From a virus, in the IMG/VR virus record IMGVR_UViG_3300046012_000362, positions 1 to 27,313 of that record: 27,313 nt of DNA. One strand, given 5' to 3'. The position numbers were made by a program, and so were the translations under genes. The notes under the pieces are model-generated. The model was not told the origin of the DNA, did not search any database, and saw nothing but the letters and a program-made list of their open reading frames with translations. Positions 1-24,739 of the stretch are shown piece by piece (the stretch's first letter is position 1; the number at the start of each line of letters is the position of its first letter).

Positions 1-3000
1 CCATCGTCCTTATTGGCGGCGTCGAAACCTTCGGAGAGGCCGCTCCGCAGAGTCCGATGCAAATGCGACAATCCAATGCCAGCGGCAGCGTCTAGATCGT
101 TTGGATTAACCGGGCCGCGCTCATCCATGGGCTGCCTGGGTTGCTTGCCGAGCAATCCTTCGGACGTGGCGCGCACGACGCGCTCCAGTGAGGCTAGGCC
201 GGGGATGTGGTGCGTGAGCGTGGTGTTGAGTTTGCCGAGTCCGAGATCCGCTGCAATGGGTGCATTCTTTCCCGGCTGCGCTGCTGCCTTTGGCTTGTCG
301 GGCAGGCCGAGCAATCGCCGCGCATAGGTAGATAACTCGCGCGTCGCGTCGCTATTGTCCTGGGTCGCATCCGTGTTGGCCTTGGTGTACTGCGCCGGGT
401 CTTTACTATCGAACAGTGTGCCCTTGAATACGTCCTTGAAGACGCCGCTTTGTGGCAGGTTGGATGTGATCGAGCCGAACACGTTTTGCATGATGGGCGC
501 GGACACATTCTCAAAAGCATTCTTGCCGACTTGGTTTAGCTGCGAACGGAAGAAATCGCTGGTCGAGTGGCTGCGGATTGAATCGTACAAACCGCCAGCC
601 TGCTGTTTGGCTTCCTCATTCGCTTGTTTTCGCAGTTCCGCGATCTTCAATTCCGCATCGATGCGAGTCTGATTGGTTTCCCTCTCGAAATCGCGATTCG
701 CCTGCGCATTATCTCTCCGTTTCTGGGCAAGCGCCGCAATCGTATTGCCTTGATCCTGCGCTAACGATTCGTTGTCGCGCAGTTGTTCGGCGTGCATCTG
801 CTTCGCCATCTCCTGCCGACGCCGCATGGAATGCAGAGCTAGATCGGTGGTTGGCCGCCCGTCAGCATTTAGTTCATCGAGGCGGTCTTGCTTGGAAAAC
901 TGCTGTTGAAGGGCATCAACTTTGGCTCTGTCATTGATGCGGGAGATTTCACGCGTTGCGCTTTTTTCTATGTCCTGCCGACGCTTCTGGATTTCACCGA
1001 GGGCCAGTTCGCGCTCAATGCGGGCATTGTCCTGCGTTTCAATATATTGAGCTAGCGCCTTTTCCTGTTCGGCGCGTTTCTTCGTGGGATCGCTCGCGAA
1101 ATCCCGATTGACGTTCTGGATTGTGCCGGTGAACTTTCGGCCCGCAGCATCGATCTGCGACTGGAAGGCAAGGTTCACGAGCGACGGATCGCCGGTCGGC
1201 TCCGTCGATTGCAGCCGCGCGAAGCCTTCTGCGCGGCGGGCGCGTAGACTCTGTTCGTCGAGGCCCTGCTCCAGCATTACCTGGTCCGTGCCGAAGCGCT
1301 TTTCCTGCCGCTGCTCAATGACGTTCCTGCTGGCCTCGATGGCCTCCCGGCTGTATATGGCGTCATTCTCGTGCGACAGTCGCGTACGCTCTCCAGGCGT
1401 CAGATTCTTGTCGCGGGCGATATCGAATTGGAACAGTTGCCGCTGTCCGAACAGTTGCGCCACGGGCCGCTCGTCACGGTTCGGCAGTTTCAGTTCCGCG
1501 AGGCGGTTCTGTTGCTCCAGGTTGCGGCGGTCAAAGGGGCGCTCTGGATCTGTATGCGCCGCTTTCTTAGATTTCAGAAGACGGTCGTACTCCTCGCGCA
1601 GTTTTTTAACATTGTCCAGATCCGCATTCAATATGCGGTCCGGCTGCTTCGCATTGATGTCATTGCGCGACTGGGCCTCGGCATCGTCCCTCGCGCTTTT
1701 CGCAGCCGCGATACGCTCATCCAGACCGGATTTCGACGAGTCCCCCAAAAGAGCATTTAGCTTGGCTGGATTTCCTGCCGGCTCAACAGGTCCGTAGGCC
1801 CCTGTCGGCGCCTTTCGTTGATCTACGCCAAACGCCGCCTGTCCGAGCAACTTTACAAGCTCAACCTCGTCCTGAATATTGCGGCCAATCCGCACCGACG
1901 CGCTGGCAATTTTCCCTTCCAGTAATGTCCACTGAACGCCAAATTGCTTTATGGCTTTTTCCGCTTCGAGCAGGTTTTTCTGTGTGCTATCTCCTAGATC
2001 TCCGATTTCGCCTTTTACCTTCTCGATATCGGGAGCGATGGCCGCTATACGAGCGCCGTCCCTGCCGAATGCGGCGACGGCTACTTGGGCGCGTTTAGCC
2101 GGGTCCTCAATTGCCGCCAGCTTACTGATGGTTTCTTCGAGGACTCCACCCAATCCCTGCCGGAGCGAAATGCCCAGTTCTGTCAACTGTTGAGCTGTCT
2201 GCTTACCGGCTCCGCCCGGCTCTTCGATGGCCGTTGCTAGCTTACGAGCAGCAGCCGCCATGGTGCCCAATTCAACACCAGATATCTCAGCGGCAGCACG
2301 CAGTTTGAATGCCTGCTGGGCGGTGATCCCCATCTCGTTGGCAAAGTTTTGTAGTTCCTGCGCGCCCTTGGCTGCATTCTTAACTACGTCCAGGAGTCCG
2401 ACAGTAACGGCGCTGGCTGCTAGCGCCGGGATAGCAAAACTCCCTGCGGTGCGGCCAATTAGTGAATCTACTGCGCGTGAATTGCGGACGCCCGCAATGA
2501 CATTTGCCGACTTAACGCTGTTGAGGAGATTCGCCTCTGCGCGATTGCTGGCTACCGCTATCTTGACCTTTTCGGCTGCGGCCAATTTGGCGGCAACCAC
2601 TTGCTCGCGATATGCCTCGGCAATTATGCGCTCTTCATTTTTCGCGGATAGCTCTACAGCGCGAGCGGCTTCTTTCGCCGCAACCGCCTTCTCTTGCGCT
2701 GCCTGGATAGCCTCGCCAGCGGCCACGCGCGCAGCGGCCGCCTCTTCTACTTTTGCCTTGGCGACGGCCCGCGCCTCTTCCGCAGCCGAACCTTCCGTGA
2801 CCGTTGCCGTTTCGAGTGCAGCAGTTTTCGCCGCTTGGGCCGCCTCATTCGATGCCGCGATGCGAACTTGCGCCTCGGTGCGGGCAGCGTCAGCCGACGC
2901 CTTGGCAGCCTCGGCTTCCCGGCGCTTAATGGCCGTGTAATCTTGCGCCGCAGGAATGGCTGTCGCCGCGCCGCCAGCTTCGGCCCCGGCCCGGATTGCT

Positions 3001-3416
3001 CCAATGTCGTGGGCTAATCTTGCTCGCCCGGCTTCTACTTGCGCCCGCAGTGAATCCTTCGCATCGGAGGCCGCTTCCCGCGAAGCCGCAGCCTCTTCGC
3101 GCTTCGCCTGCACTACGATGCGTGCTGACGCCTTGGCCTGCTCCGCCGTCAGTTTCGCGGAGTCGCGTTGCGCCTTATCGTTGAACAGCACATCTTTGGC
3201 GATCTGATTATTCATCGCCGACATCGTTTTAAGCGAATCACGGACAGACGCGCCGGAAGACGTCAGCGCCTGCAACTGTGAATCGAATTTCGCCAGCGCC
3301 TCTTTTCCGTAGGTAGACTCCAGGTTTACCTTGCGTTGGGCTGCAGTGAGACGGTCCAAATTTTCTACTCCGAGAGTAGAAATTTTATACAAAAGCGCAA
3401 ATTCTGGAGATGACAT
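1..3416 (-). CDS. Tape measure protein, C-terminus cut by window edge
   Basis: The frame stays open from an ATG at 3416 to base 1, giving at least 1138 residues, so the gene continues outside the window. The first 300 or so residues are Ala/Glu/Lys-rich helix. A hydrophobic stretch (AGSFAIPALAAS, about residue 325-345) is followed by a segment typical of phage tape measure proteins, with GITAQQAFKLRAAAEISG and later AFGRDGARIAAIAP. The rest is long Gln/Arg-rich coiled coil. In siphoviruses this protein sets tail length at about 0.15 nm per residue, which would mean a tail of at least about 170 nm. It follows the frameshifted tail chaperone genes, the standard order. The start has no clear Shine-Dalgarno and lies 4 nt after the upstream stop, suggesting translational coupling. 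Plus-strand reading frames over this interval are shadows. Confidence 0.93.
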   Translation of the reverse strand, partial: MSSPEFALLYKISTLGVENLDRLTAAQRKVNLESTYGKEALAKFDSQLQALTSSGASVRDSLKTMSAMNNQIAKDVLFNDKAQRDSAKLTAEQAKASARIVVQAKREEAAASREAASDAKDSLRAQVEAGRARLAHDIGAIRAGAEAGGAATAIPAAQDYTAIKRREAEAAKASADAARTEAQVRIAASNEAAQAAKTAALETATVTEGSAAEEARAVAKAKVEEAAAARVAAGEAIQAAQEKAVAAKEAARAVELSAKNEERIIAEAYREQVVAAKLAAAEKVKIAVASNRAEANLLNSVKSANVIAGVRNSRAVDSLIGRTAGSFAIPALAASAVTVGLLDVVKNAAKGAQELQNFANEMGITAQQAFKLRAAAEISGVELGTMAAAARKLATAIEEPGGAGKQTAQQLTELGISLRQGLGGVLEETISKLAAIEDPAKRAQVAVAAFGRDGARIAAIAPDIEKVKGEIGDLGDSTQKNLLEAEKAIKQFGVQWTLLEGKIASASVRIGRNIQDEVELVKLLGQAAFGVDQRKAPTGAYGPVEPAGNPAKLNALLGDSSKSGLDERIAAAKSARDDAEAQSRNDINAKQPDRILNADLDNVKKLREEYDRLLKSKKAAHTDPERPFDRRNLEQQNRLAELKLPNRDERPVAQLFGQRQLFQFDIARDKNLTPGERTRLSHENDAIYSREAIEASRNVIEQRQEKRFGTDQVMLEQGLDEQSLRARRAEGFARLQSTEPTGDPSLVNLAFQSQIDAAGRKFTGTIQNVNRDFASDPTKKRAEQEKALAQYIETQDNARIERELALGEIQKRRQDIEKSATREISRINDRAKVDALQQQFSKQDRLDELNADGRPTTDLALHSMRRRQEMAKQMHAEQLRDNESLAQDQGNTIAALAQKRRDNAQANRDFERETNQTRIDAELKIAELRKQANEEAKQQAGGLYDSIRSHSTSDFFRSQLNQVGKNAFENVSAPIMQNVFGSITSNLPQSGVFKDVFKGTLFDSKDPAQYTKANTDATQDNSDATRELSTYARRLLGLPDKPKAAAQPGKNAPIAADLGLGKLNTTLTHHIPGLASLERVVRATSEGLLGKQPRQPMDERGPVNPNDLDAAAGIGLSHLHRTLRSGLSEGFDAANKDD

Positions 3417-3420
3417 TTGA

Positions 3421-3840
3421 CTATCGATGGGAGGCTTTATGCAACTGGTTTTCGAGCGAGATGCTTTCCTGCTCGATGATGGTCATTGCTTCGACAAATC
3501 GGGCGTCGGCATCAACGAGGGAAGAGGTATATGAGGATTTGGCCCCGTCGCTCGCTTGCCGGATGCGGAAGTACTCTTCCACCCAGTAAATGCTGTCGTC
3601 GGTGACGTAGGAGCGGGGACACTGGCTGATGGCCATGCCCATGATGGGGAGTTCCGGTTTGCCCGGAACCGTGTAGGAGGGAACCCACTTCTGCTGGCGA
3701 AACTTTACGTCGCCGCGGAAGTACTTTGGGCAGTTTCGGAGGCGGTAGTGTCCGTCTCGCTTACAGGGTCGGCAGCGGTATCGGTCGTCGGCGTTTCCTC
3801 CGCTGCGGACGAAATGGAGGCCGACGCGGAGTTTTTTTGC
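3421..3840 (-). CDS. Tail assembly chaperone, downstream frame reached by -1 frameshift (gpGT-like T part)
   Basis: This open frame begins directly after a TGA at 3841-3843 and lies -1 relative to the 3705-4349 gene. The only in-frame ATGs (3642, 3636) come late, yet the sequence upstream of them looks coding (CRPCKRDGHYRLRNCPKYF, FRQQKWVPSYTVPGKPELP). It is therefore best read as the T extension of a lambda gpG/gpGT-type pair, entered at the A AAA AAC heptamer at 3831-3837. The fusion would be about 309 residues: 173 from the upstream frame plus 136 from this one. The extension contains a CxxC pair that may bind metal. It ends 4 nt before the tape measure start, where the T part is expected. 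Internal initiation at 3642 would give only 73 residues and lacks a good ribosome site. Confidence 0.8.
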   Translation of the reverse strand, partial: AKKLRVGLHFVRSGGNADDRYRCRPCKRDGHYRLRNCPKYFRGDVKFRQQKWVPSYTVPGKPELPIMGMAISQCPRSYVTDDSIYWVEEYFRIRQASDGAKSSYTSSLVDADARFVEAMTIIEQESISLENQLHKASHR

Positions 3841-4373: not shown

Positions 4374-5387
4374 CTAGGTGATTGTGTAGCCGATCTCGTC
4401 CGATGCGCCCGCCACAGATTCGTGGAAGATGAAGTTCTGCGCGTCGAGCATCCAGCGGTCGTCGTTTTCGATCAGTTTGGGAAAATCGAGCTGACCGCCC
4501 TCTAATGCGATGGTGTGAATATTGCCGGCAGTCGTGCCGATTTGGGCGCTAACGGCCATTTCCACTTTGCTGATCGCTTTGGCCCGTAGATTGGTTAGCG
4601 CCGTTTCGCTGTTATCGTACAGACGGCATTGGCCGGTAATGCGGCGTGTACGGCCAATGGGTCCGGTCGGATAGAAGTTGCCGAAAGTGTCGGTCACCTG
4701 ATCCCAGCCGAAGTCGGCCGTGATGGTCATGCTCTGGACCGTATCGACCACATTCCCGCCGATCGATAATGCCCCGACGAAGCCCTGCGCCTGTGCGCCA
4801 TTGATGACCGGCGTAGTCGGCTCTGCGGGGAATGATCCCAAGCCGCCCTTGCCGATAGTGTCGGCAGCCGCAAATTGCTCGCTGTCCAATACCCACATGC
4901 ACACGCCCTCGACCTGGTAATTGGCGACGTTCTGCCCAAGATTCCAGGTGACGCGGCGTACAAGACAGGAGATGCCCGCCTGCTGAAACGGCACGGCTAC
5001 CGCAGCCGTGCGATAGCGCCACAGGGTAAACGCCTTGTTGACCAGATCGTTGATGGTATAGGCGACGGAAGTAGTAGCCGTCACCGTTTCCGTGCCGAAG
5101 GCGGCCGTGAGAATGGCCGATGCGTCCGGCGCGGTTCCCGCGGTGCCCGATCCCATCAGCGGAAGACTCAGACGAAAGGTGCCATGCTGCCGGCCCTTCT
5201 GCGCCGGGAACAGCCCGCGCGAGCCGGTCTTCCATTCGATGTCGTACATATCGACTGCCGGGTCAAGTTCGCAAGTGATGTGCGCGAGATGGTTGTCTGC
5301 CGCGGGCGCGGCAGCAGTGCCGTATGTTGTTTCGCCAGCGGCATAGATTCGTTCATTGCGGCCGTAGATAAAAGCCGGTGTAGGCAT
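4374..5387 (-). CDS. Major tail tube protein
   Basis: A 337-residue protein with an excellent ribosome site (AAGGAG, 7 nt before ATG). It is beta-rich and Gly/Thr-rich, typical of siphoviral tail tube subunits. The N-terminus (GRNERIYAAGETTYGTAAAP) resembles the YGxx-type start of phage tail tube and related proteins, and the C-terminal part (FGWDQVTDTFGNFYPTGP, then a charged beta region) fits a tube domain. It directly precedes the frameshifted chaperone pair and the tape measure gene. Its leader carries a terminator-like hairpin and a 25-bp element shared with the coat gene, consistent with very high expression. The exact family is inferred. Confidence 0.8.
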   Translation of the reverse strand: MPTPAFIYGRNERIYAAGETTYGTAAAPAADNHLAHITCELDPAVDMYDIEWKTGSRGLFPAQKGRQHGTFRLSLPLMGSGTAGTAPDASAILTAAFGTETVTATTSVAYTINDLVNKAFTLWRYRTAAVAVPFQQAGISCLVRRVTWNLGQNVANYQVEGVCMWVLDSEQFAAADTIGKGGLGSFPAEPTTPVINGAQAQGFVGALSIGGNVVDTVQSMTITADFGWDQVTDTFGNFYPTGPIGRTRRITGQCRLYDNSETALTNLRAKAISKVEMAVSAQIGTTAGNIHTIALEGGQLDFPKLIENDDRWMLDAQNFIFHESVAGASDEIGYTIT

Positions 5388-5394
5388 GATTGGG

Positions 5395-5419
5395 CTCCTT
5401 CTGCCTCAACGGCAGTAGT
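5395..5419 (-). repeat. 25-bp leader element of the tail tube gene (copy 2)
   Basis: Identical over 25 bp to 12276-12300. On the transcribed strand it contains the hairpin CTGCC-GTTGA-GGCAG followed at once by AAGGAG, so it places a stem-loop directly 5' of the ribosome site. It may protect or present the leader for strong translation. Confidence 0.8.
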
Positions 5420-11365: not shown

Positions 11366-12268
11366 TTAGTCGCTCTGCACTTGCACGCCGAACGAGTTTC
11401 GGAGCACTCCGCAGCCGTAGAAGGCGTCAATTGTGACCTGTTGGGCCAGGGTGCCGGGCTGATAGGACAGCACCACGCGCATACCGAAGTTGCCCATCTC
11501 GACGTACTCGGCAATCGCGCCGGTGCCAGGAAGTGGCTGCGGCAGGCGGCGCATCACGAGCGCGATGGCATCGCGGGCAAATGCAAGATTGTAGGTGGTC
11601 GAAGAAGGCTTGGCGACCAACTGCGACCGCACAATCACGAAGTCTTTTAATTTTCCGACTTGTCCGGTGACAAGTGCGTCTACGCCGGCCTGCCCGATGG
11701 TCTGAAATTCAGAAAAACGCGGCAGTAGTCGCACTTCGCTGTACGCTGTGCCACTAGTGACCAAAAACTTGGGCGCTGCGGGAGGCACCTTGGCAGTGAA
11801 CAGTGCCGTCTCGGCGCCGTCCAGCCGGGCTTCATCGAACGCCGTCGCTCCGCCCTGGGCGCTGTTGAAGGTGAACTGCGGATAGAGGCTCAGTAGGTCG
11901 CTTTCGATCTTTTCCGCGACGGAAATTACCGCCGGGTTCATGTAGGTACGGAGCACGTCTACCGCTGTGATCGCCCGTGTCACATCAGGCAGGATGAAGC
12001 TGCATTCAGCGTGAGTGTTTAGAACGATCTGCGCATTGCCGAGGCTCGGGGTCTGCGCTTGTACAGATCCGCCTTCCGCGAGGTTATTCGCGGCCAGGAC
12101 GGGCGGGATTGCCACGTTTACGGTGTCGCCGGCTTGCCCCAGTGTCGGTTCAAACTGTCTGTTGACAAGGTTGCCCATCACGAGATTGCTCATGAGCGCC
12201 GGGAGGGCCTCAGCAGCAACCAATTTCACGATGGCGTTCGCCATATTGGCAGAGGTAAGTGTTGCCAT
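11366..12268 (-). CDS. Major capsid (coat) protein, P22 gp5-like
   Basis: A 300-residue protein with AAGGAG 7 nt before ATG and the 25-bp hairpin leader before that. The N-terminal pattern (MSNLVMGNLVNRQFEP, then GDTVNVAIPP) is that of the P22 coat family, which keeps the HK97 fold. The middle carries long helix and beta segments typical of the family. It follows the scaffold gene directly. It is expected to form the icosahedral shell as hundreds of copies. A separate maturation protease is not obvious nearby, in keeping with P22-like capsids, which do not need coat cleavage. Confidence 0.85.
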   Translation of the reverse strand: MATLTSANMANAIVKLVAAEALPALMSNLVMGNLVNRQFEPTLGQAGDTVNVAIPPVLAANNLAEGGSVQAQTPSLGNAQIVLNTHAECSFILPDVTRAITAVDVLRTYMNPAVISVAEKIESDLLSLYPQFTFNSAQGGATAFDEARLDGAETALFTAKVPPAAPKFLVTSGTAYSEVRLLPRFSEFQTIGQAGVDALVTGQVGKLKDFVIVRSQLVAKPSSTTYNLAFARDAIALVMRRLPQPLPGTGAIAEYVEMGNFGMRVVLSYQPGTLAQQVTIDAFYGCGVLRNSFGVQVQSD

Positions 12269-12275
12269 GTTGTAA

Positions 12276-12300
12276 CTCCTTCTGCCTCAACGGCAGTAGT
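12276..12300 (-). repeat. 25-bp leader element of the coat gene (copy 1)
   Basis: Identical over 25 bp to 5395-5419. It carries the CTGCC-GTTGA-GGCAG hairpin directly before AAGGAG and the coat ATG. The surrounding sequences differ, so the shared block is sharply bounded. Confidence 0.8.
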
Positions 12301-12322: not shown

Positions 12323-13054
12323 TTACTTGGTGCTATTTGCGATGAATGCAGCGAGATCGGCCCTCGCTCTATCAAGCAATTCGCTGCTGGCGCCTGGCTT
12401 CACTTGGTCCCAATCCACGGCTTTTGCCGAGTGTTGCTGGGATCGTCCGCTGCCCGCGCCATTCACATTGACCGGCGGCAGATAATGCGGCCGGGCTTCG
12501 ATGTAATCCTTGACGTAAACGTCGAGATTCGCATCGTCACCGGCATACAGTCTGCCGTTATCGTCGCGTTTGATCTTGCCGGAAAGAATCTCGAACAGGT
12601 CATCCGCGGCGCCAGATACCAGTTGATGTTTGCTGATTTCGGCCCGTAGAATGCTGTCTGCTTCTTTCCTTTGCGCCGATTCCTTGGTGCGCCGGTTCTC
12701 TTCCGTGAGACTGTTGATTTGATCTTGGAAGGTCTTCAACTGCCTCTGGAGAATGGTCACTTCTGGATTCGGCTTGTCGCCTTTGCCATTCCCTGCCGGT
12801 TCCGGTGTTGGGTCCGGTTCGGGGGTAGGCTCAGACTTGGCGGGTTGCGCTGATACGAACTTGGTGAAATCATTCTTCATGTTCTTCGCAAACCCATTGA
12901 GGGTTTTGTTGAACTCGTCGAAGATTCCCTTTTTGAACGTATCGGGATCAAACGCTGGTTTTGGTTCCCCGGAATTATTCGAATCGCCGGCTCCGGCTCC
13001 GGCAGCGCCCGGCTCGTCTGCGAACAGCGAGCCAAGCAGAAAACGGTTAAACAT
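12323..13054 (-). CDS. Scaffolding protein
   Basis: A 243-residue acidic, helical protein directly upstream of the coat gene, the usual place for scaffold. The first 100 residues are low-complexity (Gly/Ala/Pro/Glu), then comes a coiled coil (TILQRQLKTFQDQINSLTEE) and a charged C-terminal helix (ELLDRARADLAAFIAN), which in scaffolds binds coat. There is no sign of a Ser-protease motif. TGGAG lies 4 nt before the ATG. Confidence 0.82.
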   Translation of the reverse strand: MFNRFLLGSLFADEPGAAGAGAGDSNNSGEPKPAFDPDTFKKGIFDEFNKTLNGFAKNMKNDFTKFVSAQPAKSEPTPEPDPTPEPAGNGKGDKPNPEVTILQRQLKTFQDQINSLTEENRRTKESAQRKEADSILRAEISKHQLVSGAADDLFEILSGKIKRDDNGRLYAGDDANLDVYVKDYIEARPHYLPPVNVNGAGSGRSQQHSAKAVDWDQVKPGASSELLDRARADLAAFIANSTK

Positions 13055-13586: not shown

Positions 13587-15161
13587 CTATGCGGCCGCTG
13601 CCGCGTCCTCGAATAGCCGCGGGCTGATGCCCTTCGATGCCGCCTGCAACTTTTGGCTCATTGCCTGCTGCTGCTGATCCAGTTCGAGCGCCGTCGGATT
13701 CTTCTCTATCTCGCTCTTGATCTGTTCCATCTTTTCGCGGCTCAGATCTGGCAGCGTGATTTCCACAATCCGATTCGCGATTTCGCGCTGGTACTCCGGC
13801 GAATTGACTTCCACAATGCTCGTGGCTCGCTCGATCACTTCCAGTTCGATCACATCGTCGCGATCCGCGAAGTTCATGCCCTGCACGTCTGCCACGACGC
13901 TGATGCCCATACGGGTGATCGCGGCATTGAGCACCCGCTGAATGCCGGTGCGCGCCTGATCGCCCAAGGCGGCAGCTACATCGCGCGCTGGCATCATGTC
14001 CTGCTCCTTGCTATAGCCACTTTGCGCCGATGCTGATGCCGAGGCCGAGCGGCCCTGCGTCACGAGATACGCGAGGCGATAGACTTCTTCGCGCAATTCC
14101 TTGATGCGCTCTTGCGAGGCCGAAAACGCTTTGCCGGACTGCTCCAGAAATTCGGCTTTGTCATCCTTGCCGAACTGCATGAAATAGCCTTCGCCCTTCG
14201 AAACCTTGTCTACAGCCTTATCGCTGTAGATCGTCAGCATCGCGAGATTGGTCATTTCGAGCGCCCAATCGTAGGAATTCTCGTGATTGAGCAAGCGCAC
14301 CAGCGGCGAATCGACGCGATTGCCGATCCAGATGCTCGTATCGATGACCTGCCGGAACAGCGGCACGATCTGCTGATCGGCAAGCGAATGCGGATGCGGG
14401 AATCCCTGGATTATGGTCGCGTTCGCATCGGGAGGATTGTCGCCCAGCGCATTCAGCAACTGCGTCTGATCTTTTTTGCGCTCATACTCGTAAGCGGCGA
14501 CTTGATCGCGCGTGAACACATACCAGCGGTCGAACACTTTCGGCTCTTGAAATGGGTCATCCTGCACGGTAGCCAGTAATTTGACCACCGCCCATTCGAG
14601 GTTGCCCTGTTCATCCTCATACCAGTTGATGACATCCTGCGGGTTGTAGCATCGCAGAATCGGGCGCAGGCCCCCGCTCGCCTGTTGCTGCGCGCGCGAG
14701 GCGAATTCTCCCTGGACCGGCACATCGATCAGCACATACGCTGTCGAATACAGCAATACGGCCGGCTCGACGGAACGCCGCCAGAAATCGATTAGCGGTG
14801 TCGAGGCGAGGTCCACGTCCTCCTGGAATACGGCCACCTGCTGCTTGATCTTGTCGGACGCTTCTACGTCGGTATCCGGCGATCTGAGAACGATGGACGG
14901 CGGCTCCTTAAACAGTGCGCTCAGATACCAGCCGATGATATTGCCGAGATGGTTCGCGTACGTGAATCGCGCAATGCGATCCGTATATACGTCGGGCATC
15001 TCCATCGGGCGCTTCGCGAGGAACTCCATCGCGCACGACTTGAGGGTGTGGCCGCCTTCGTACAGTTTGCGGGCGCGCTCCCATTGGCCGATGCACGATT
15101 TATGCGTCTCATGCCGTGCATCGATCGTCTTGATGGCGATCTGTTCCGGGAATTGGATCAT
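13587..15161 (-). CDS. Portal protein
   Basis: A 524-residue protein between the terminase and scaffold/coat, the expected slot for portal. It has the layout of the DUF4055-type phage portals: Tyr/Asn-containing helical start (FTYANHLGNIIGWYLSALF), then PPSIVLRSPD, then FWRRSVEPAVLLYSTAYVLI, the clip and stem, and a Gln-rich helical C-terminus (QQQQAMSQKLQAASK). Twelve copies would form the DNA channel and the terminase docking site. Assignment by order plus sequence style. Confidence 0.82.
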   Translation of the reverse strand: MIQFPEQIAIKTIDARHETHKSCIGQWERARKLYEGGHTLKSCAMEFLAKRPMEMPDVYTDRIARFTYANHLGNIIGWYLSALFKEPPSIVLRSPDTDVEASDKIKQQVAVFQEDVDLASTPLIDFWRRSVEPAVLLYSTAYVLIDVPVQGEFASRAQQQASGGLRPILRCYNPQDVINWYEDEQGNLEWAVVKLLATVQDDPFQEPKVFDRWYVFTRDQVAAYEYERKKDQTQLLNALGDNPPDANATIIQGFPHPHSLADQQIVPLFRQVIDTSIWIGNRVDSPLVRLLNHENSYDWALEMTNLAMLTIYSDKAVDKVSKGEGYFMQFGKDDKAEFLEQSGKAFSASQERIKELREEVYRLAYLVTQGRSASASASAQSGYSKEQDMMPARDVAAALGDQARTGIQRVLNAAITRMGISVVADVQGMNFADRDDVIELEVIERATSIVEVNSPEYQREIANRIVEITLPDLSREKMEQIKSEIEKNPTALELDQQQQAMSQKLQAASKGISPRLFEDAAAAA

Positions 15162-15554: not shown

Positions 15555-15747
15555 TTACTTTCTTTCCGTGCCGGTCTTTGGCTACGCTGCCGATTAACCC
15601 TTTGATATAACCGGTTCTGCCAATTGGGCGCTTCAAGCCCCATGACGGCTCGGTTTCGTCGAGCCATTCGATAGCTTTCTCGATGAGATTTCGATACTGT
15701 TCGCCAAAACGGGCAATCAGTTTCTCTGTCTGCGCCCGATCCGTCAC
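15526..15747 (-). CDS. Small basic protein coupled to TerL
   Basis: 73 residues from the GTG at 15747, which overlaps the TerL stop (GTGTGA). An alternative frame extension to 15831 would overlap TerL far more. The sequence is helical (EKLIARFGEQYRNLIEKAIE) then basic (SVAKDRHGKKVNG). The tight overlap implies coupled translation. Function unknown. Confidence 0.6.
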   Translation of the reverse strand: MTDRAQTEKLIARFGEQYRNLIEKAIEWLDETEPSWGLKRPIGRTGYIKGLIGSVAKDRHGKKVNGNEQSSSD

Positions 15748-17075
15748 ACTAGCCTCGTTTGTCCGAATCCGACTTCGCCGCGGTGAATCGGCAGCACCTG
15801 CTCGCAGAGATACCTGAGCGCGTCCGAACAATGTGTTCGTTTCGGATCGCTCTTGTCCATCTCATAAATCGAGTTGCCGTGCGAGTCCTGTTTCCAGGTG
15901 ACTTGCTCCAGATCGCTCACCAGTTCCGAGCACTGCGGATCGATCATGAGACGTCGCTCACCGGCGGCATTGCACAGCGCGGCATTCACCGAATTGACGC
16001 CATCGCGCACGAGATTGTGCGAACTGGCGACCATCATGCGAAGTTCGTAGCGCGGGTCGTTGCGAAAGTACTTCTCGACCAGGCCCCAATCCGACTCGCC
16101 CGCATGGTTGCGATTATTGCCGGCCGGATCACCATAGATCCACACCGGCAACTTGTACCCATAGCGGCAGTATTGCTCGGTCCGTCGAATGAATTCAGCG
16201 CACGCCGTATTGATGTTGCTGTCCGGCAGACTGATTTCATCGAGAATGCGGATATGCTTCGAAGACTCGACGCCCAAGTGCGCGTAGGGCCTGTAATCCT
16301 GCACCTGAGCAATGACCGAAGACATCGGGTTGACGTTGAAATCGAGCGACCAGCACAATTGCAGATTCGGGTCGTATTCGATCTTGCGGAGATTCTCCGA
16401 TCGGTTGAACGCATGGAACACGCGCCCGCTGCGGATGTTGAGATATTCGCCGAGAACTTCCTGCCGATAGAATCGCTCATCGTACGACTGCTCCAGCCGG
16501 TCGTACATTTCAAGAACATGATAGTTTTCGCGCGGCGATGCGAGCACCGCCTCAAATCCCGGCTGCGGATCGACTATAAAGCGGCGATACACCCAATCGA
16601 AGCCGTTCGGCGTCCAAACCGCGAACGCTTCGCGCAACAACGCCTGCGGATCACGCAAACGCGCCTGGAGGCGTAAAAACGAATCCTCTTTGCAAAACGT
16701 CAGTTCGTCGCAGCCGAACCACGCGAGGTTCGTGCCGCGCAACCGGTCAGGATCGTCCAGCGAGCGAAACAGGATATTGGATCGCGGCTCGGACAAGTAC
16801 AGCCGATTTTCCTGCTTGTAGAAGCGATAGGGTATGCCTTCAAGTTCCAGAATTTCCCAGAACGCGACTTGCGTCACGTCTCGCAGCATGGGATACGATG
16901 GCGCTCCTACGAGGCCATGGCGGCCGGCGTTGATGTGCGCGAGGAACAGGGACTCGTAGACTAAAGCCCTCGATTTCCCGCTGCCTACTGGACCCGAATA
17001 TCCTTTGTATTGGACTCGGAGGGCGTGGAATTTTCGCTGGCTCCGGAGGGGTTGGTAGATCCACGCTCTTTCCAT
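15744..17075 (-). CDS. terL: Terminase large subunit
   Basis: A 443-residue DNA-packaging ATPase/nuclease. Visible motifs: Walker A GPVGSGKS (residues 28-35), Walker B hydrophobic run ending in CDE (D123, E124), coupling motif VWTPNG (153-158), and RNase H-like nuclease acids D245 (SLDFNVNP), D316 (YGDPAG) and D418 (HCSDALRY). It would dock on the portal and cut concatemers. It overlaps the TerS gene by 91 nt, and no Shine-Dalgarno is seen. The length is within the normal range. Confidence 0.95.
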   Translation of the reverse strand: MERAWIYQPLRSQRKFHALRVQYKGYSGPVGSGKSRALVYESLFLAHINAGRHGLVGAPSYPMLRDVTQVAFWEILELEGIPYRFYKQENRLYLSEPRSNILFRSLDDPDRLRGTNLAWFGCDELTFCKEDSFLRLQARLRDPQALLREAFAVWTPNGFDWVYRRFIVDPQPGFEAVLASPRENYHVLEMYDRLEQSYDERFYRQEVLGEYLNIRSGRVFHAFNRSENLRKIEYDPNLQLCWSLDFNVNPMSSVIAQVQDYRPYAHLGVESSKHIRILDEISLPDSNINTACAEFIRRTEQYCRYGYKLPVWIYGDPAGNNRNHAGESDWGLVEKYFRNDPRYELRMMVASSHNLVRDGVNSVNAALCNAAGERRLMIDPQCSELVSDLEQVTWKQDSHGNSIYEMDKSDPKRTHCSDALRYLCEQVLPIHRGEVGFGQTRLV

Positions 17076-17647
17076 TCGTCAGTCAGCCAATCCGGGAATG
17101 CGGCTTTTGGCGCAAGCACTCCTTCATCGATTTCGTCCTTCCACTGTCCAAGTTCTTCAGCGGCCTGCTGCGCTACGGCTCGCAACTCTTGTGCGAGGGC
17201 TGTATCGCTGACATATTCCGCCACAAACTTTCCGCCGCGAATGCCCTTAATCCGTCGCAGCACAAAGCCGCCCGTGCCGCCCGGGACCTTCGCCATCGTC
17301 GGATCGGCGGCGCGCTCATCGGCGATCATCATCAAGCGGCGCATAATGTCGTTGTACATCCGCACGCGCGCCTGTTTCGAGGCGATCTGCATGTCAGCCA
17401 CTTTGGCAACTTGCGCTATAGCCTCCTCAGCGACGGCGGCATTGAGAGCTTCGATGCGGGCGCGCACGCGCGGCCGATTGGCGAGACGGCTGCCCTGCGA
17501 CGAGGCGTACGGCGCGGCATAGCCGGCGGCCAGCGCCGCTTCATGTTTGCTTTTGCCGAATAGCGCCCGGGTGCGTGCGAATTGCTCCTCGCGCATATCC
17601 GGCAGCGGACCAACGGCTGGCGGCTTTATTTTGCGTTTCGCGCTCAT
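16985..17647 (-). CDS. terS: Terminase small subunit
   Basis: A 220-residue protein directly before TerL. The N-terminal part has the helix-turn-helix pattern of small terminases (SKHEAALAAGYAAPYASSQG, then SRLANRPRVRARIEALN), followed by a helical oligomerisation region and a Ser/Glu-rich tail. It recognises packaging sites and feeds DNA to TerL. The long overlap with TerL suggests coupled translation. Confidence 0.85.
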   Translation of the reverse strand: MSAKRKIKPPAVGPLPDMREEQFARTRALFGKSKHEAALAAGYAAPYASSQGSRLANRPRVRARIEALNAAVAEEAIAQVAKVADMQIASKQARVRMYNDIMRRLMMIADERAADPTMAKVPGGTGGFVLRRIKGIRGGKFVAEYVSDTALAQELRAVAQQAAEELGQWKDEIDEGVLAPKAAFPDWLTDEWKERGSTNPSGASENSTPSESNTKDIRVQ

Positions 17648-17854: not shown

Positions 17855-18079
17855 TCAGAATGTGGTCGGTTTGGCGACGGAGCGGACGAGCGCCATGAAC
17901 CCTTTTTGTAGGTCGGTTTTCGCGATAGCGAGCCAGCGCTTATCGACGGTGGGCATCTCATTTAATACGTCAATGAGTTTCCCAACGTCCTCGCCCTTCA
18001 TTTTCGCGTCGTTCATCAAATCGATTTCTTCTTGGCTTAGATCGCGATAGCCGCTGATCTTCTGGTGTTGGTTATCCAT
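17855..18079 (-). CDS. acb2: Acb2-family anti-CBASS cyclic-nucleotide sponge
   Basis: A 74-residue protein with the family pattern GYRDLSQEEIDLMND near the start and RWLAIAKTDLQKGFMALVRS near the end, closing in KPTTF. Acb2 forms a small hexamer that sequesters cyclic di- and trinucleotides and so blocks CBASS and related cGAS-like immunity. Tyr11 and Lys26, recalled as ligand contacts in the Pseudomonas phage protein, are both present at the same numbers. Length fits the family. It lies upstream of the packaging genes. The start lacks a clear Shine-Dalgarno. Family membership is strong; activity here is inferred. Confidence 0.85.
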   Translation of the reverse strand: MDNQHQKISGYRDLSQEEIDLMNDAKMKGEDVGKLIDVLNEMPTVDKRWLAIAKTDLQKGFMALVRSVAKPTTF

Positions 18080-18123: not shown

Positions 18124-18339
18124 GTGGAGGAAGAGGACATATTCTGCGACTTTTGCGGCCGTACCGCCTATTTCCTGTGCGGCTCGATCATCGGCCCGGA
18201 TGCGACTCCCTGCGATGCGCCGCTGTGCCATGAGCACTACCGCGGCGGCTGCTGCCCGAAGCACGCGAAGCGGCCATTGCCGAGAGCGCCGGTAGTCATG
18301 CCGCCACGCCCGGATGGGGCGCAGTTGCGTCTGTTCTAG
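18124..18339 (+). CDS. Cysteine-rich zinc-finger-like protein, opposite strand
   Basis: 71 residues from the GTG at 18124, with GGAGGA spaced about 9 nt before it, one of the best ribosome sites in the window. Cysteines and histidines are spaced as in small phage zinc proteins: FCDFCGR, then PLCHEHY, then GCCPKHAK. It lies on the plus strand, divergent from acb2 by 44 nt and convergent with the Ntn hydrolase; the two stops share CTAG at 18336-18339. Function unknown; zinc binding is inferred. Confidence 0.7.
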   Translation: MEEEDIFCDFCGRTAYFLCGSIIGPDATPCDAPLCHEHYRGGCCPKHAKRPLPRAPVVMPPRPDGAQLRLF

Positions 18340-18887
18340 GATGCAAGCGGCAGCGACTTGATTACGAACGGACCACATACTGCGGAACAATGCCGCTCTA
18401 CTGCCTGGAGGACTCCCATCATTCGCCCATGACTGCCGCCCAAATCTTGCGTGCTATACAGTGCGCCAATGGCGATATCATCCCCACATCCGCACGCATC
18501 GTAGCCGTGAAGCGATTCGCCAATCTGGTAATCGCTTTGGATGCAAAACAGACGCCCAGCGTAGCCTAGCAGGAACGTGCCGCCGCTCTCTTCCTCGTTC
18601 GTCTTCCGGGCGTATCCGCCGTCTTTCAGGCATTGGCGAACGGAATCGGCGAACGAAGTGGCGAGATACTCCTCGACATCCTGGCCATCCGCTCGCGTTG
18701 GAATCTCCAACTTGTATCGCAGCAACTGCCCCATGCGAAAGGAAGACGTGAAGCCGAATAGGAATTGGCCCCGCTGGAACACCTTAGCATCGGCGCGGAC
18801 TGTGATTGATGCGCCGGACACGCCCGCGCTGTCGCCACCGATCCAGACTGTCTTATTAGCGTCTACGAATCCAGCGATAGCGGTCAT
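18336..18887 (-). CDS. Ntn hydrolase, HslV/proteasome beta-like
   Basis: A 183-residue protein with the proteasome/HslV fold signature. After removal of Met1 it starts at Thr1 (TAIAG); the acid of GGDSAG falls at 18 and the lysine of ADAKVF at 34, matching the Thr1/Asp17/Lys33 arrangement of HslV-type peptidases. GFTSSFRMGQLLRY and a CGCGDDIAIGAL turn near the C-terminus also fit. Phage versions are known but their role is unclear. It could process virion proteins or cut host targets. It overlaps the upstream gene by ATGA. No HslU-like ATPase is seen here. Confidence 0.8.
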   Translation of the reverse strand: MTAIAGFVDANKTVWIGGDSAGVSGASITVRADAKVFQRGQFLFGFTSSFRMGQLLRYKLEIPTRADGQDVEEYLATSFADSVRQCLKDGGYARKTNEEESGGTFLLGYAGRLFCIQSDYQIGESLHGYDACGCGDDIAIGALYSTQDLGGSHGRMMGVLQAVERHCSAVCGPFVIKSLPLAS

Positions 18888-19258
18888 ATTTCCAGCGTGT
18901 TGTCCACGTCGTCAATCGCTTCGCTGATTCGGTGCAGACACTGGATCAGATCTTCCAGTGTGCTGCCGATCTTGCACGCTGCCGGGCATGCGCCGTGGCC
19001 GACTTTAGGTTCTTGTCCGCCGATTGGCCGTCGAATCGGTTCCAGCCGCGCCGCCAATTTCTGGAATTTCGCGCCTATTCGGTCAACAACGCCTTCCAAT
19101 AACTGGAGCTTGCTTGCAATCTCCGGCTGGCGCTCAGCGCAGTCAGTATCTAATTGCGACAGACCAGCGCTGCGCTGTTCATCCAGGCATGCGCTTATCT
19201 TTTGCCCACCATTACCCAGCGGAATGTTCCCCCACGCAGATTTGTAGTTGTTCTCCAT
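18884..19258 (-). CDS. Coiled-coil protein upstream of the Ntn hydrolase
   Basis: 124 residues with a helical middle (PEIASKLQLLEGVVDRIGAK) and a second helix near the end (LEDLIQCLHRISEAIDDVD), with a Cys/Gly-rich turn (GHGACPAACKIG) between. It is joined to the Ntn hydrolase by an ATGA overlap, so the two may act together, for example as an adaptor for the hydrolase. Not recognised. Confidence 0.65.
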   Translation of the reverse strand: MENNYKSAWGNIPLGNGGQKISACLDEQRSAGLSQLDTDCAERQPEIASKLQLLEGVVDRIGAKFQKLAARLEPIRRPIGGQEPKVGHGACPAACKIGSTLEDLIQCLHRISEAIDDVDNTLEI

Positions 19259-23041: not shown

Positions 23042-24739
23042 TTAGTTGATATTGATCGACGCCACGGCGCTGCCATTGACCACGCCGAATGTCGCCGCGC
23101 CGCTCAGTGTGCGCGGCGACGTGACGTGGATATTCGACAAGCCCGCGCCGGAGAAATCTTCTACCGCGAAATACGCCCGCAGTTTGCCGGTCGTGTCGAT
23201 GATCGATGCGCCGGTGATCTGCACATTCCCCAGTCGATTGCCGCCGCCGCCCTGCTCGACCGCAATCGCGGAGTCATCATCGCTTGACCCGCGCTGATTG
23301 GCGTTGGTCACAGTCATGCCGGCGAACGTAAGCGCCGGGCCGGGGATGTCCCAGAAGTGGGCATCGGCTCCATAGCTGCCATCGAAGGACGAACTCGAGT
23401 TCTCGATGAGCACCGAGCCGCCTGGGCTGCCGGCGCTATTGTCCGATGCCTGATAGCCCGCGCCTTGATTGCGTGAGGTGGCAAAGTTCGACACGACGAT
23501 CGAGACCGCCGCGGCCCGGCTGCTTTGCGCCGATACCGAAACGGTCACGCCGTTGCCGGCGTTGCCCGATGCGCTGCTATTTTCGATGAGGATATTTTGC
23601 AGCGCATCGCTATCGCCGTTCGGTTCCACGTCGATGCCGGCCATTGGCAGCGTGCCCGTTGTGTTCGTGAACTGGCAGTGATCGATTGTGACGTTTTTCC
23701 CGGAGATCAACGAGAACGCATTGCGCCTGTTATTGTTGAACACCGAATCCGTGACTGAAACCGTGTCGCTGTAGCCGCGCGATCCCGCGCCAATGTAAAT
23801 CCCGTCGCCGCCCGAATCATTACAGGCAATCCCGGAAATGGTCACATCGCTCGATCCCTCGATGCTCAGACAGTGCCGGTACTCGCCGCTCGTGTATTCC
23901 GACTTTCGCATCTGGAAGATGCTCTTGCCGGGCGTGCCCGCGATGCGGACGTTGCTCACATCGACGACATTCAGCATGTGTTGATATTGCGAATAGCCAC
24001 TCGTGGCCGTCACGGTTGCCCCGGCGTCCATCACCACGTTTGCGCTGTTGGGAAAATTCAGCGGCGCGACGTTGTACGAGCCAGCCGGAATTTCGAGAAT
24101 CTGCTTATTCGCTGCGGATGAATTCAGCGCGTTTTGAAACACGGCCGTATCGTTGCCGCCGTGGCCGACCGAGCCATAGCTAGTCAGCATCACCGTATCG
24201 CCGGAGGGCGGAGGTGGTGGTTGGACCGGAGGTGGTGGTTGCACCGGCGGCGGCGGAGGTTCGACCGGTGGAGGCGGAGGAGGCGGCTGCTGTACGCTTA
24301 CCGGCGTGATCGTGATCTTGTCGATCTCCGCGACCCAGTTGGTGTGCTGCCGGACGAATCGGATCGAGTTCGAACCGGCCCGGAGGGGCAGCGTCACAGT
24401 CTGCGATTGCAGCCGCGTCCATGATCCAGTCGGAGGAAACGTCAGCACCTGCGCCGATCCGCCGTTCGCGCTCACGCTCGCAGGCATGCTGCTTGATGTG
24501 CCGTTGTCGAAGGTGACGGCAATCTGATACGAGCCGGACGCCGACGCCTTGACGTTGTTCATCGTCAGCGTGCCGTTGCCGGGTCCGCCCAGGTTCTGGA
24601 CGTTCTTACGGCCGGAGCACACTGAGCAACCGGCGATATCGGCGCTACCGCCGACCTGGTTGCCGGACGCCTCAGCTTCATAAATCGTTTGCGAGCTGGC
24701 GCACAACGACGCCGCGAATATCAGTACTGCGAGTTTCAT
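23042..24739 (-). CDS. Secreted CBM/beta-helix protein, probable polysaccharide-active enzyme
   Basis: A 565-residue protein with a signal peptide (KLAVLIFAASLCASS), a carbohydrate-binding module of CBM6/CBM35 style (IYEAEASGNQVGGSADIAG near the start, then GSNSIRF), a proline-rich linker at about 153-180, and a right-handed parallel beta-helix (repeats such as VTISGIACNDSGGDGIYIG). The fold is that of pectate lyases and phage depolymerases, but the signal peptide marks an exported, non-tailspike product. It probably digests host surface or environmental polysaccharide. The catalytic residues are not identified. Confidence 0.8.
   Translation of the reverse strand: MKLAVLIFAASLCASSQTIYEAEASGNQVGGSADIAGCSVCSGRKNVQNLGGPGNGTLTMNNVKASASGSYQIAVTFDNGTSSSMPASVSANGGSAQVLTFPPTGSWTRLQSQTVTLPLRAGSNSIRFVRQHTNWVAEIDKITITPVSVQQPPPPPPPVEPPPPPVQPPPPVQPPPPPSGDTVMLTSYGSVGHGGNDTAVFQNALNSSAANKQILEIPAGSYNVAPLNFPNSANVVMDAGATVTATSGYSQYQHMLNVVDVSNVRIAGTPGKSIFQMRKSEYTSGEYRHCLSIEGSSDVTISGIACNDSGGDGIYIGAGSRGYSDTVSVTDSVFNNNRRNAFSLISGKNVTIDHCQFTNTTGTLPMAGIDVEPNGDSDALQNILIENSSASGNAGNGVTVSVSAQSSRAAAVSIVVSNFATSRNQGAGYQASDNSAGSPGGSVLIENSSSSFDGSYGADAHFWDIPGPALTFAGMTVTNANQRGSSDDDSAIAVEQGGGGNRLGNVQITGASIIDTTGKLRAYFAVEDFSGAGLSNIHVTSPRTLSGAATFGVVNGSAVASININ

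Follow-up and report, generated by a model that had tools for sequence, protein, structure and literature searches.

Fuchs, Alva and Lupas described 22 new proteasome homologues in 2021 and reported two groups, AAH and PPH (proteasome homologue of phages and their hosts), in many phages (PMC8665760). AAH occurs mainly in Alphaproteobacteria and Actinobacteria, with further copies in phages and phage-borne copies in Firmicutes; for the phage proteins, the catalogue gave no function, no conserved or informative gene context and no hint of what they might do (PMC8665760). The nearest solved fold, that of BPH (beta-proteobacterial proteasome homologue; PDB 5ovs, 5ovt, 5ovu), has no known unfoldase or ATPase, and connectase, also a proteasome homologue, acts as a ligase (PMC8665760). 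Phage HslV-like genes without HslU had been noted in 2020 (PMC7823757). In the literature beyond PMC8665760, we found no functional study of AAH.

Here we analyze a gene of this kind in a 27,313-base stretch from a tailed phage, an IMG/VR virus record; the whole stretch is called the window. Phage AAH-type enzymes have been known since 2021 and are not new as a group. What is new here is that they are found preferentially next to terminase and portal genes. Together with their presence in genomes without HslU and their coexistence with canonical head proteases, this placement narrows the hypotheses on AAH function and points to concrete phages for study. We suggest, with a probability of about 0.6, that the protein is an accessory, ATP-independent threonine peptidase that is often expressed late.

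The hydrolase gene and its product

The window contains a minus-strand cluster of head and packaging genes, followed by neck and tail-tube genes (Table 1). A preliminary description of this DNA had proposed that it encodes a phage-borne Ntn hydrolase of the HslV/proteasome type with its Thr, Asp and Lys intact. The reading frame is real: it spans 183 aa without interruption on the minus strand, and the plus strand of the same stretch has internal stops. Threonine follows the start methionine directly, without a propeptide, in this protein and in all of its aligned relatives (alignment of 83 sequences). A Met-Thr N-terminus is a substrate of methionine aminopeptidase, from which we infer that Thr1 becomes exposed; residue numbers refer to the mature protein, with Thr1 after removal of Met.

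Table 1. Coordinates of the window genes discussed in the text
Feature	Coordinates	Strand	Basis
Major capsid protein	11366..12268	-	annotation
Scaffolding protein candidate	12323..13054	-	annotation
Portal protein	13587..15161	-	annotation
Terminase large subunit	15744..17075	-	annotation
Terminase small subunit	16985..17647	-	annotation
Acb2 homologue, 74 aa, next minus-strand gene after the hydrolase	17855..18079	-	PF24729, PDB, PHROG 717
Small Cys/His-rich, zinc-ribbon-like ORF with plausible ribosome-binding site	18124..18339	+	sequence only
AAH-type proteasome-like Ntn hydrolase, 183 aa	18336..18887	-	ORF, PHROG, alignment, fold model
Helical ORFan, 124 aa, ATGA-coupled upstream of the hydrolase	18884..19258	-	no relatives found
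ECF-like sigma-70 family protein, 153 aa	19273..19734	-	Sigma70_r2 E 2e-5; ECF-type models

Searched as a single sequence, the protein has no relevant match in Pfam, NCBIfam or PDB (phmmer), and PADLOC gives no match. It falls in the annotated phage family PHROG 1040 (E = 1.6e-18), in an alignment that covers residues 1–144 only; the family name, 'peptidase HslV family', implies a function that is presumed for these proteins.

The AlphaFold2 model, built with 83 sequences, has a mean pLDDT of 93.8 and a pTM of 0.90. It contains the alpha-beta-beta-alpha sandwich of Ntn hydrolases, which had been named beforehand as the fold that a structure prediction should show. The best Foldseek matches are BPH (E = 6e-11) and HslV. 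Using VIA-align, the model matches BPH (5ovs) with a Z score of 20.9 (2.5 Å, 172 residues) and HslV with a Z score of about 19, and 20S beta subunits match as well. Independently, HslV, BPH and proteasome beta chains are also recovered from the PDB by a sequence-profile search, in which Thr1, Asp and Lys align with their counterparts. By DSSP the modeled subunit is compact, with H1 and H2 present (for H2, a helix at residues 71–89) and no C-terminal H5.

Thr1, Asp18, Lys34 and the oxyanion Gly44 are invariant in 83/83 aligned sequences, which are 47–62% identical to the window protein. Invariance across this range indicates that the Thr/Asp/Lys triad is not a chance occurrence, and the intact catalytic set proposed earlier is supported. 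The further claim that these residues keep the HslV spacing is half right: Asp and Lys are 16 residues apart, as in HslV, but the interval from Thr to Asp is one residue longer (18/34 instead of 17/33), owing to one additional residue at position 9, which most relatives lack. The protein is probably catalytically active.

Other conserved positions in the alignment include Ser19, Ala20, Ser48, Arg50, Met51, Arg83, Gly107 and Gln120. We also compared the accessory positions equivalent to proteasome Ser129, Asp166 and Ser169. By sequence alignment alone, the Ser129 position is occupied by Cys in most AAH members (G-C-G, residues 132–134 in the window protein, versus G-S-G in HslV), and, opposite the late conserved Asp of HslV, AAH members mostly carry a non-acidic residue (Arg, Gln or Ala). 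The conserved TSSFRM segment that follows the oxyanion Gly of AAH differs from HslV, and thus the specificity, even the type of reaction, may differ.

These differences bear on an alternative in which AAH is not a degradative peptidase and instead works as a specific transferase, ligase or amidase, for which connectase is the precedent (PMC8665760). Such a role would be in keeping with features that distinguish AAH from HslV, namely the conserved S48, R50, M51 and Q53 and the Cys in place of Ser129. However, AAH retains H1 and H2, both absent from connectase, and its closest structural neighbors, BPH and HslV, form rings. We consider a transferase or ligase unlikely and favor a threonine peptidase.

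Relationship to other proteasome homologues

The window protein almost certainly belongs, as a phage representative, to the AAH-like proteasome homologues. Membership in AAH itself is likely, an assignment based on distribution and anatomy in which AAH was compared by its published description. The points of agreement are the occurrence in both phages and bacteria, the lack of a propeptide, the compact group I subunit, which has H1 and H2 but lacks a C-terminal H5, and the Thr/Asp/Lys/Gly set; the location in a head module found here is a difference, as it is absent from PMC8665760. Less probably, the protein belongs to CPH, a small group also seen in phages. A quick tree groups it with other phage sequences in a clade of eight (support 0.99).

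The other described groups fit less well. PPH is likewise phage-borne, of group I and without a propeptide (PMC8665760), but PPH proteins are about 140 aa long and lack helix H2, whereas the window protein has both helix regions; its length of 183 aa and the H2 helix at 71–89 rule out PPH. BPH is the best structural match and has the same triad, but its identity to the window protein is 16–17%, and a phage location of BPH is not described in PMC8665760. HslV (ClpQ) shares the fold and the Thr1/Asp/Lys/Gly residues, but at 14–18% identity, and AAH shows no dependence on HslU at the family level. The window protein alone has no NCBIfam HslV match at E values up to 1 and no Pfam proteasome match. 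It thus stands outside the NCBIfam HslV model, which rules out HslV proper.

Distribution

Profile-based scans identified at least 374 relatives in IMG/VR and 196 bacterial genome loci with AAH, and tblastn found matches in 183 records of the phage collection. The bacterial loci are mainly from Alphaproteobacteria, Actinobacteria and Firmicutes, with matches in Azospirillum, rhizobia, Streptomyces, Actinoplanes and relatives, Paenibacillus and Cytobacillus. The taxa in the genomes and in IMG/VR fit the pattern published for AAH and therefore support an AAH distribution.

The phage collection contains no near DNA relative of the window. None of 80 relatives of the window phage terminase is accompanied by an AAH gene; 26 of them have at least 3 kb of sequence upstream, and the nearest (L169, 82%) ends 357 bases upstream of the terminase, too early for the presence of AAH to be decided there. 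Based on its absence from terminase relatives, AAH is not a core gene but an accessory one.

In Azospirillum, AAH is found at a recurrent chromosomal place in many species, without phage genes (loci L089–L129). It is single there and lies near genes for cysteinyl- and glutamyl-tRNA synthetases, a DJ-1/PfpI-family protein and NAD synthase.

The neighboring Acb2 gene

Between the hydrolase and terminase genes lies a gene for an Acb2 homologue. Its product matches PF24729 (E = 3.6e-19), the p26 structures in the PDB (8h2j/8ixz, E = 7e-19) and PHROG 717; it is shorter than the solved Acb2 (74 versus 93 aa), with a shorter mid-hairpin. Members of the Acb2 family are cyclic-nucleotide (cyclic-oligonucleotide) sponges directed against CBASS (PMC12043709).

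This arrangement raises the question whether the hydrolase is a counter-defense protein that removes a host defense protein and makes up an accessory block together with the Acb2 sponge. In favor of such a block, the two are successive minus-strand genes, and the absence of AAH from terminase relatives is as expected of an accessory gene. A second contig, L309, retrieved with Acb2 as the query, pairs a divergent AAH relative with Acb2: the proteasome-like gene (2836–3471) is on the same strand, about 1.5 kb upstream of Acb2 (5001–5225). The association is not general, however, as Acb2 was found in none of the other 80 AAH phage loci and an AAH relative in only 1 of 80 Acb2 loci. Within the window, the small plus-strand ORF is convergent with the hydrolase gene, overlaps it by 4 nt and, if real, separates it from acb2. 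Bacterial chromosomal copies, moreover, suggest a general activity. A counter-defense role of AAH is conceivable but not likely, and we give it little weight.

ATPase partners

We asked if AAH genomes encode a matching ATPase. HslU scores over the cut-off in 8/8 proteobacterial or Firmicute genomes with AAH and in 0/12 actinobacterial ones; AAA_2, representing HslU/Clp-type ATPases, does so in 1 of 50 AAH phage contigs. Host HslU, which the preliminary description had considered as a partner, is thus not a general requirement. This result holds at the level of the family. HslU could be used by AAH in some hosts, and the partner could also be an unrelated ATPase of the host, for instance ClpX.

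A stronger version of the HslU hypothesis is that the protein is a true HslV-type subunit, which docks on host HslU so that ATP-dependent proteolysis is diverted to the benefit of the phage. The fold is the same as that of HslV, and all 8 proteobacterial and Firmicute genomes tested would supply the ATPase. The 12 actinobacterial genomes would not, the protein has no match to the NCBIfam HslV model, and 49 of the 50 contigs lack a phage-borne AAA_2 over the cut-off. Docking on HslU is therefore improbable, and a peptidase that works independently of ATP is the reading we retain.

Location in the head module and head proteases

In 48 of 81 phage loci, AAH lies within 3 kb of the large terminase subunit (TerL) or portal gene. 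The expectation, drawn from other genes of the same loci, is 26.1, and none of 10,000 simulations reaches 48, although the strength of this statistic is overstated, since the loci are related, non-independent and in some cases near duplicates. The excess is clear: AAH is located preferentially beside terminase or portal. In larger phages, the related genes have other positions, in some cases beside nucleotide-metabolism genes.

A gene in this position could encode a head maturation protease that processes the scaffold or capsid proteins of the window phage. Consistent with such a role, the scanned head genes of the window phage include a separate scaffold candidate but no recognized S78 or S14 protease. 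Scaffolded phages, however, often need no protease, which counts against the idea. In addition, an S78 protease is encoded on 29 of 50 AAH phage contigs and a ClpP-type protease on 7 others (36/50 in total); in 19 of these 36, the gene for the S78 or ClpP-type protease follows AAH on the same strand within 6 kb. AAH is thus no simple substitute for the ordinary head protease, and a replacement of the canonical prohead protease was rejected on the same count. Bacterial AAH genes on chromosomes, away from phage genes, also argue against head maturation, which we regard as distinctly improbable.

The coupled upstream gene

Two features of the upstream region had been proposed earlier: the ATGA overlap at 18884–18887 is present, and the call of a sigma factor gene beyond it is supported (Table 1). 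The description of the coupled protein as a coiled coil is less secure. It is predicted to be mostly helical, but a coiled coil is only plausible, the single-sequence model having a pLDDT of 61.8. Searches of phages, IMG/VR and the 80 other AAH loci returned no relative of this protein; being an ORFan that is absent from all other AAH loci, it is not conserved as the partner that had been suggested as one possibility. The same 4-nt overlap joins many other AAH genes to unrelated upstream genes, such as TerL or portal, indicating that the coupling says little about function. The translational coupling and the mostly helical prediction would fit an enzyme of two components in which the helical protein regulates or targets the hydrolase, but with a partner that has no relatives anywhere searched and with the same overlap to unrelated neighbors elsewhere, such an enzyme is extremely unlikely.

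Proposed function

For the accessory threonine peptidase that we favor, the following course of events can be envisaged. Host methionine aminopeptidase would remove Met and free Thr1. The subunits may then assemble into a small ring or double ring like those of BPH and HslV, which would need no dedicated ATPase to cleave peptides or unfolded proteins. The enzyme would be made with the late genes and could, in the course of infection, degrade protein debris or else one particular substrate of phage or host origin. That the hydrolase is an ATP-independent ring peptidase appears slightly more probable than the opposite.

A more specific proposal is tentative and, in our estimate, doubtful. Phage AAH might be a morphogenesis-linked, motor-free and self-compartmentalized threonine peptidase that is co-expressed with the packaging and head genes. 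It would act late, on virion assembly products or host proteins, mostly in phages that already have a head protease.

Other features of the window

The window contains no structured RNA and no tRNA. A beta-helix protein with a carbohydrate-binding module, similar to tailspikes, is encoded at 23042–24739 on the minus strand. A 42-nt repeat occurs at 12259–12300 and 5378–5419 (83% identical), directly before the start codons of the capsid and tail-tube genes. It consists of a hairpin (CTGCC-GTTGA-GGCAG) and an AAGGAG ribosome-binding site, with a folding energy of -10 kcal/mol, and seems to serve both of these main virion genes as a common 5' leader.
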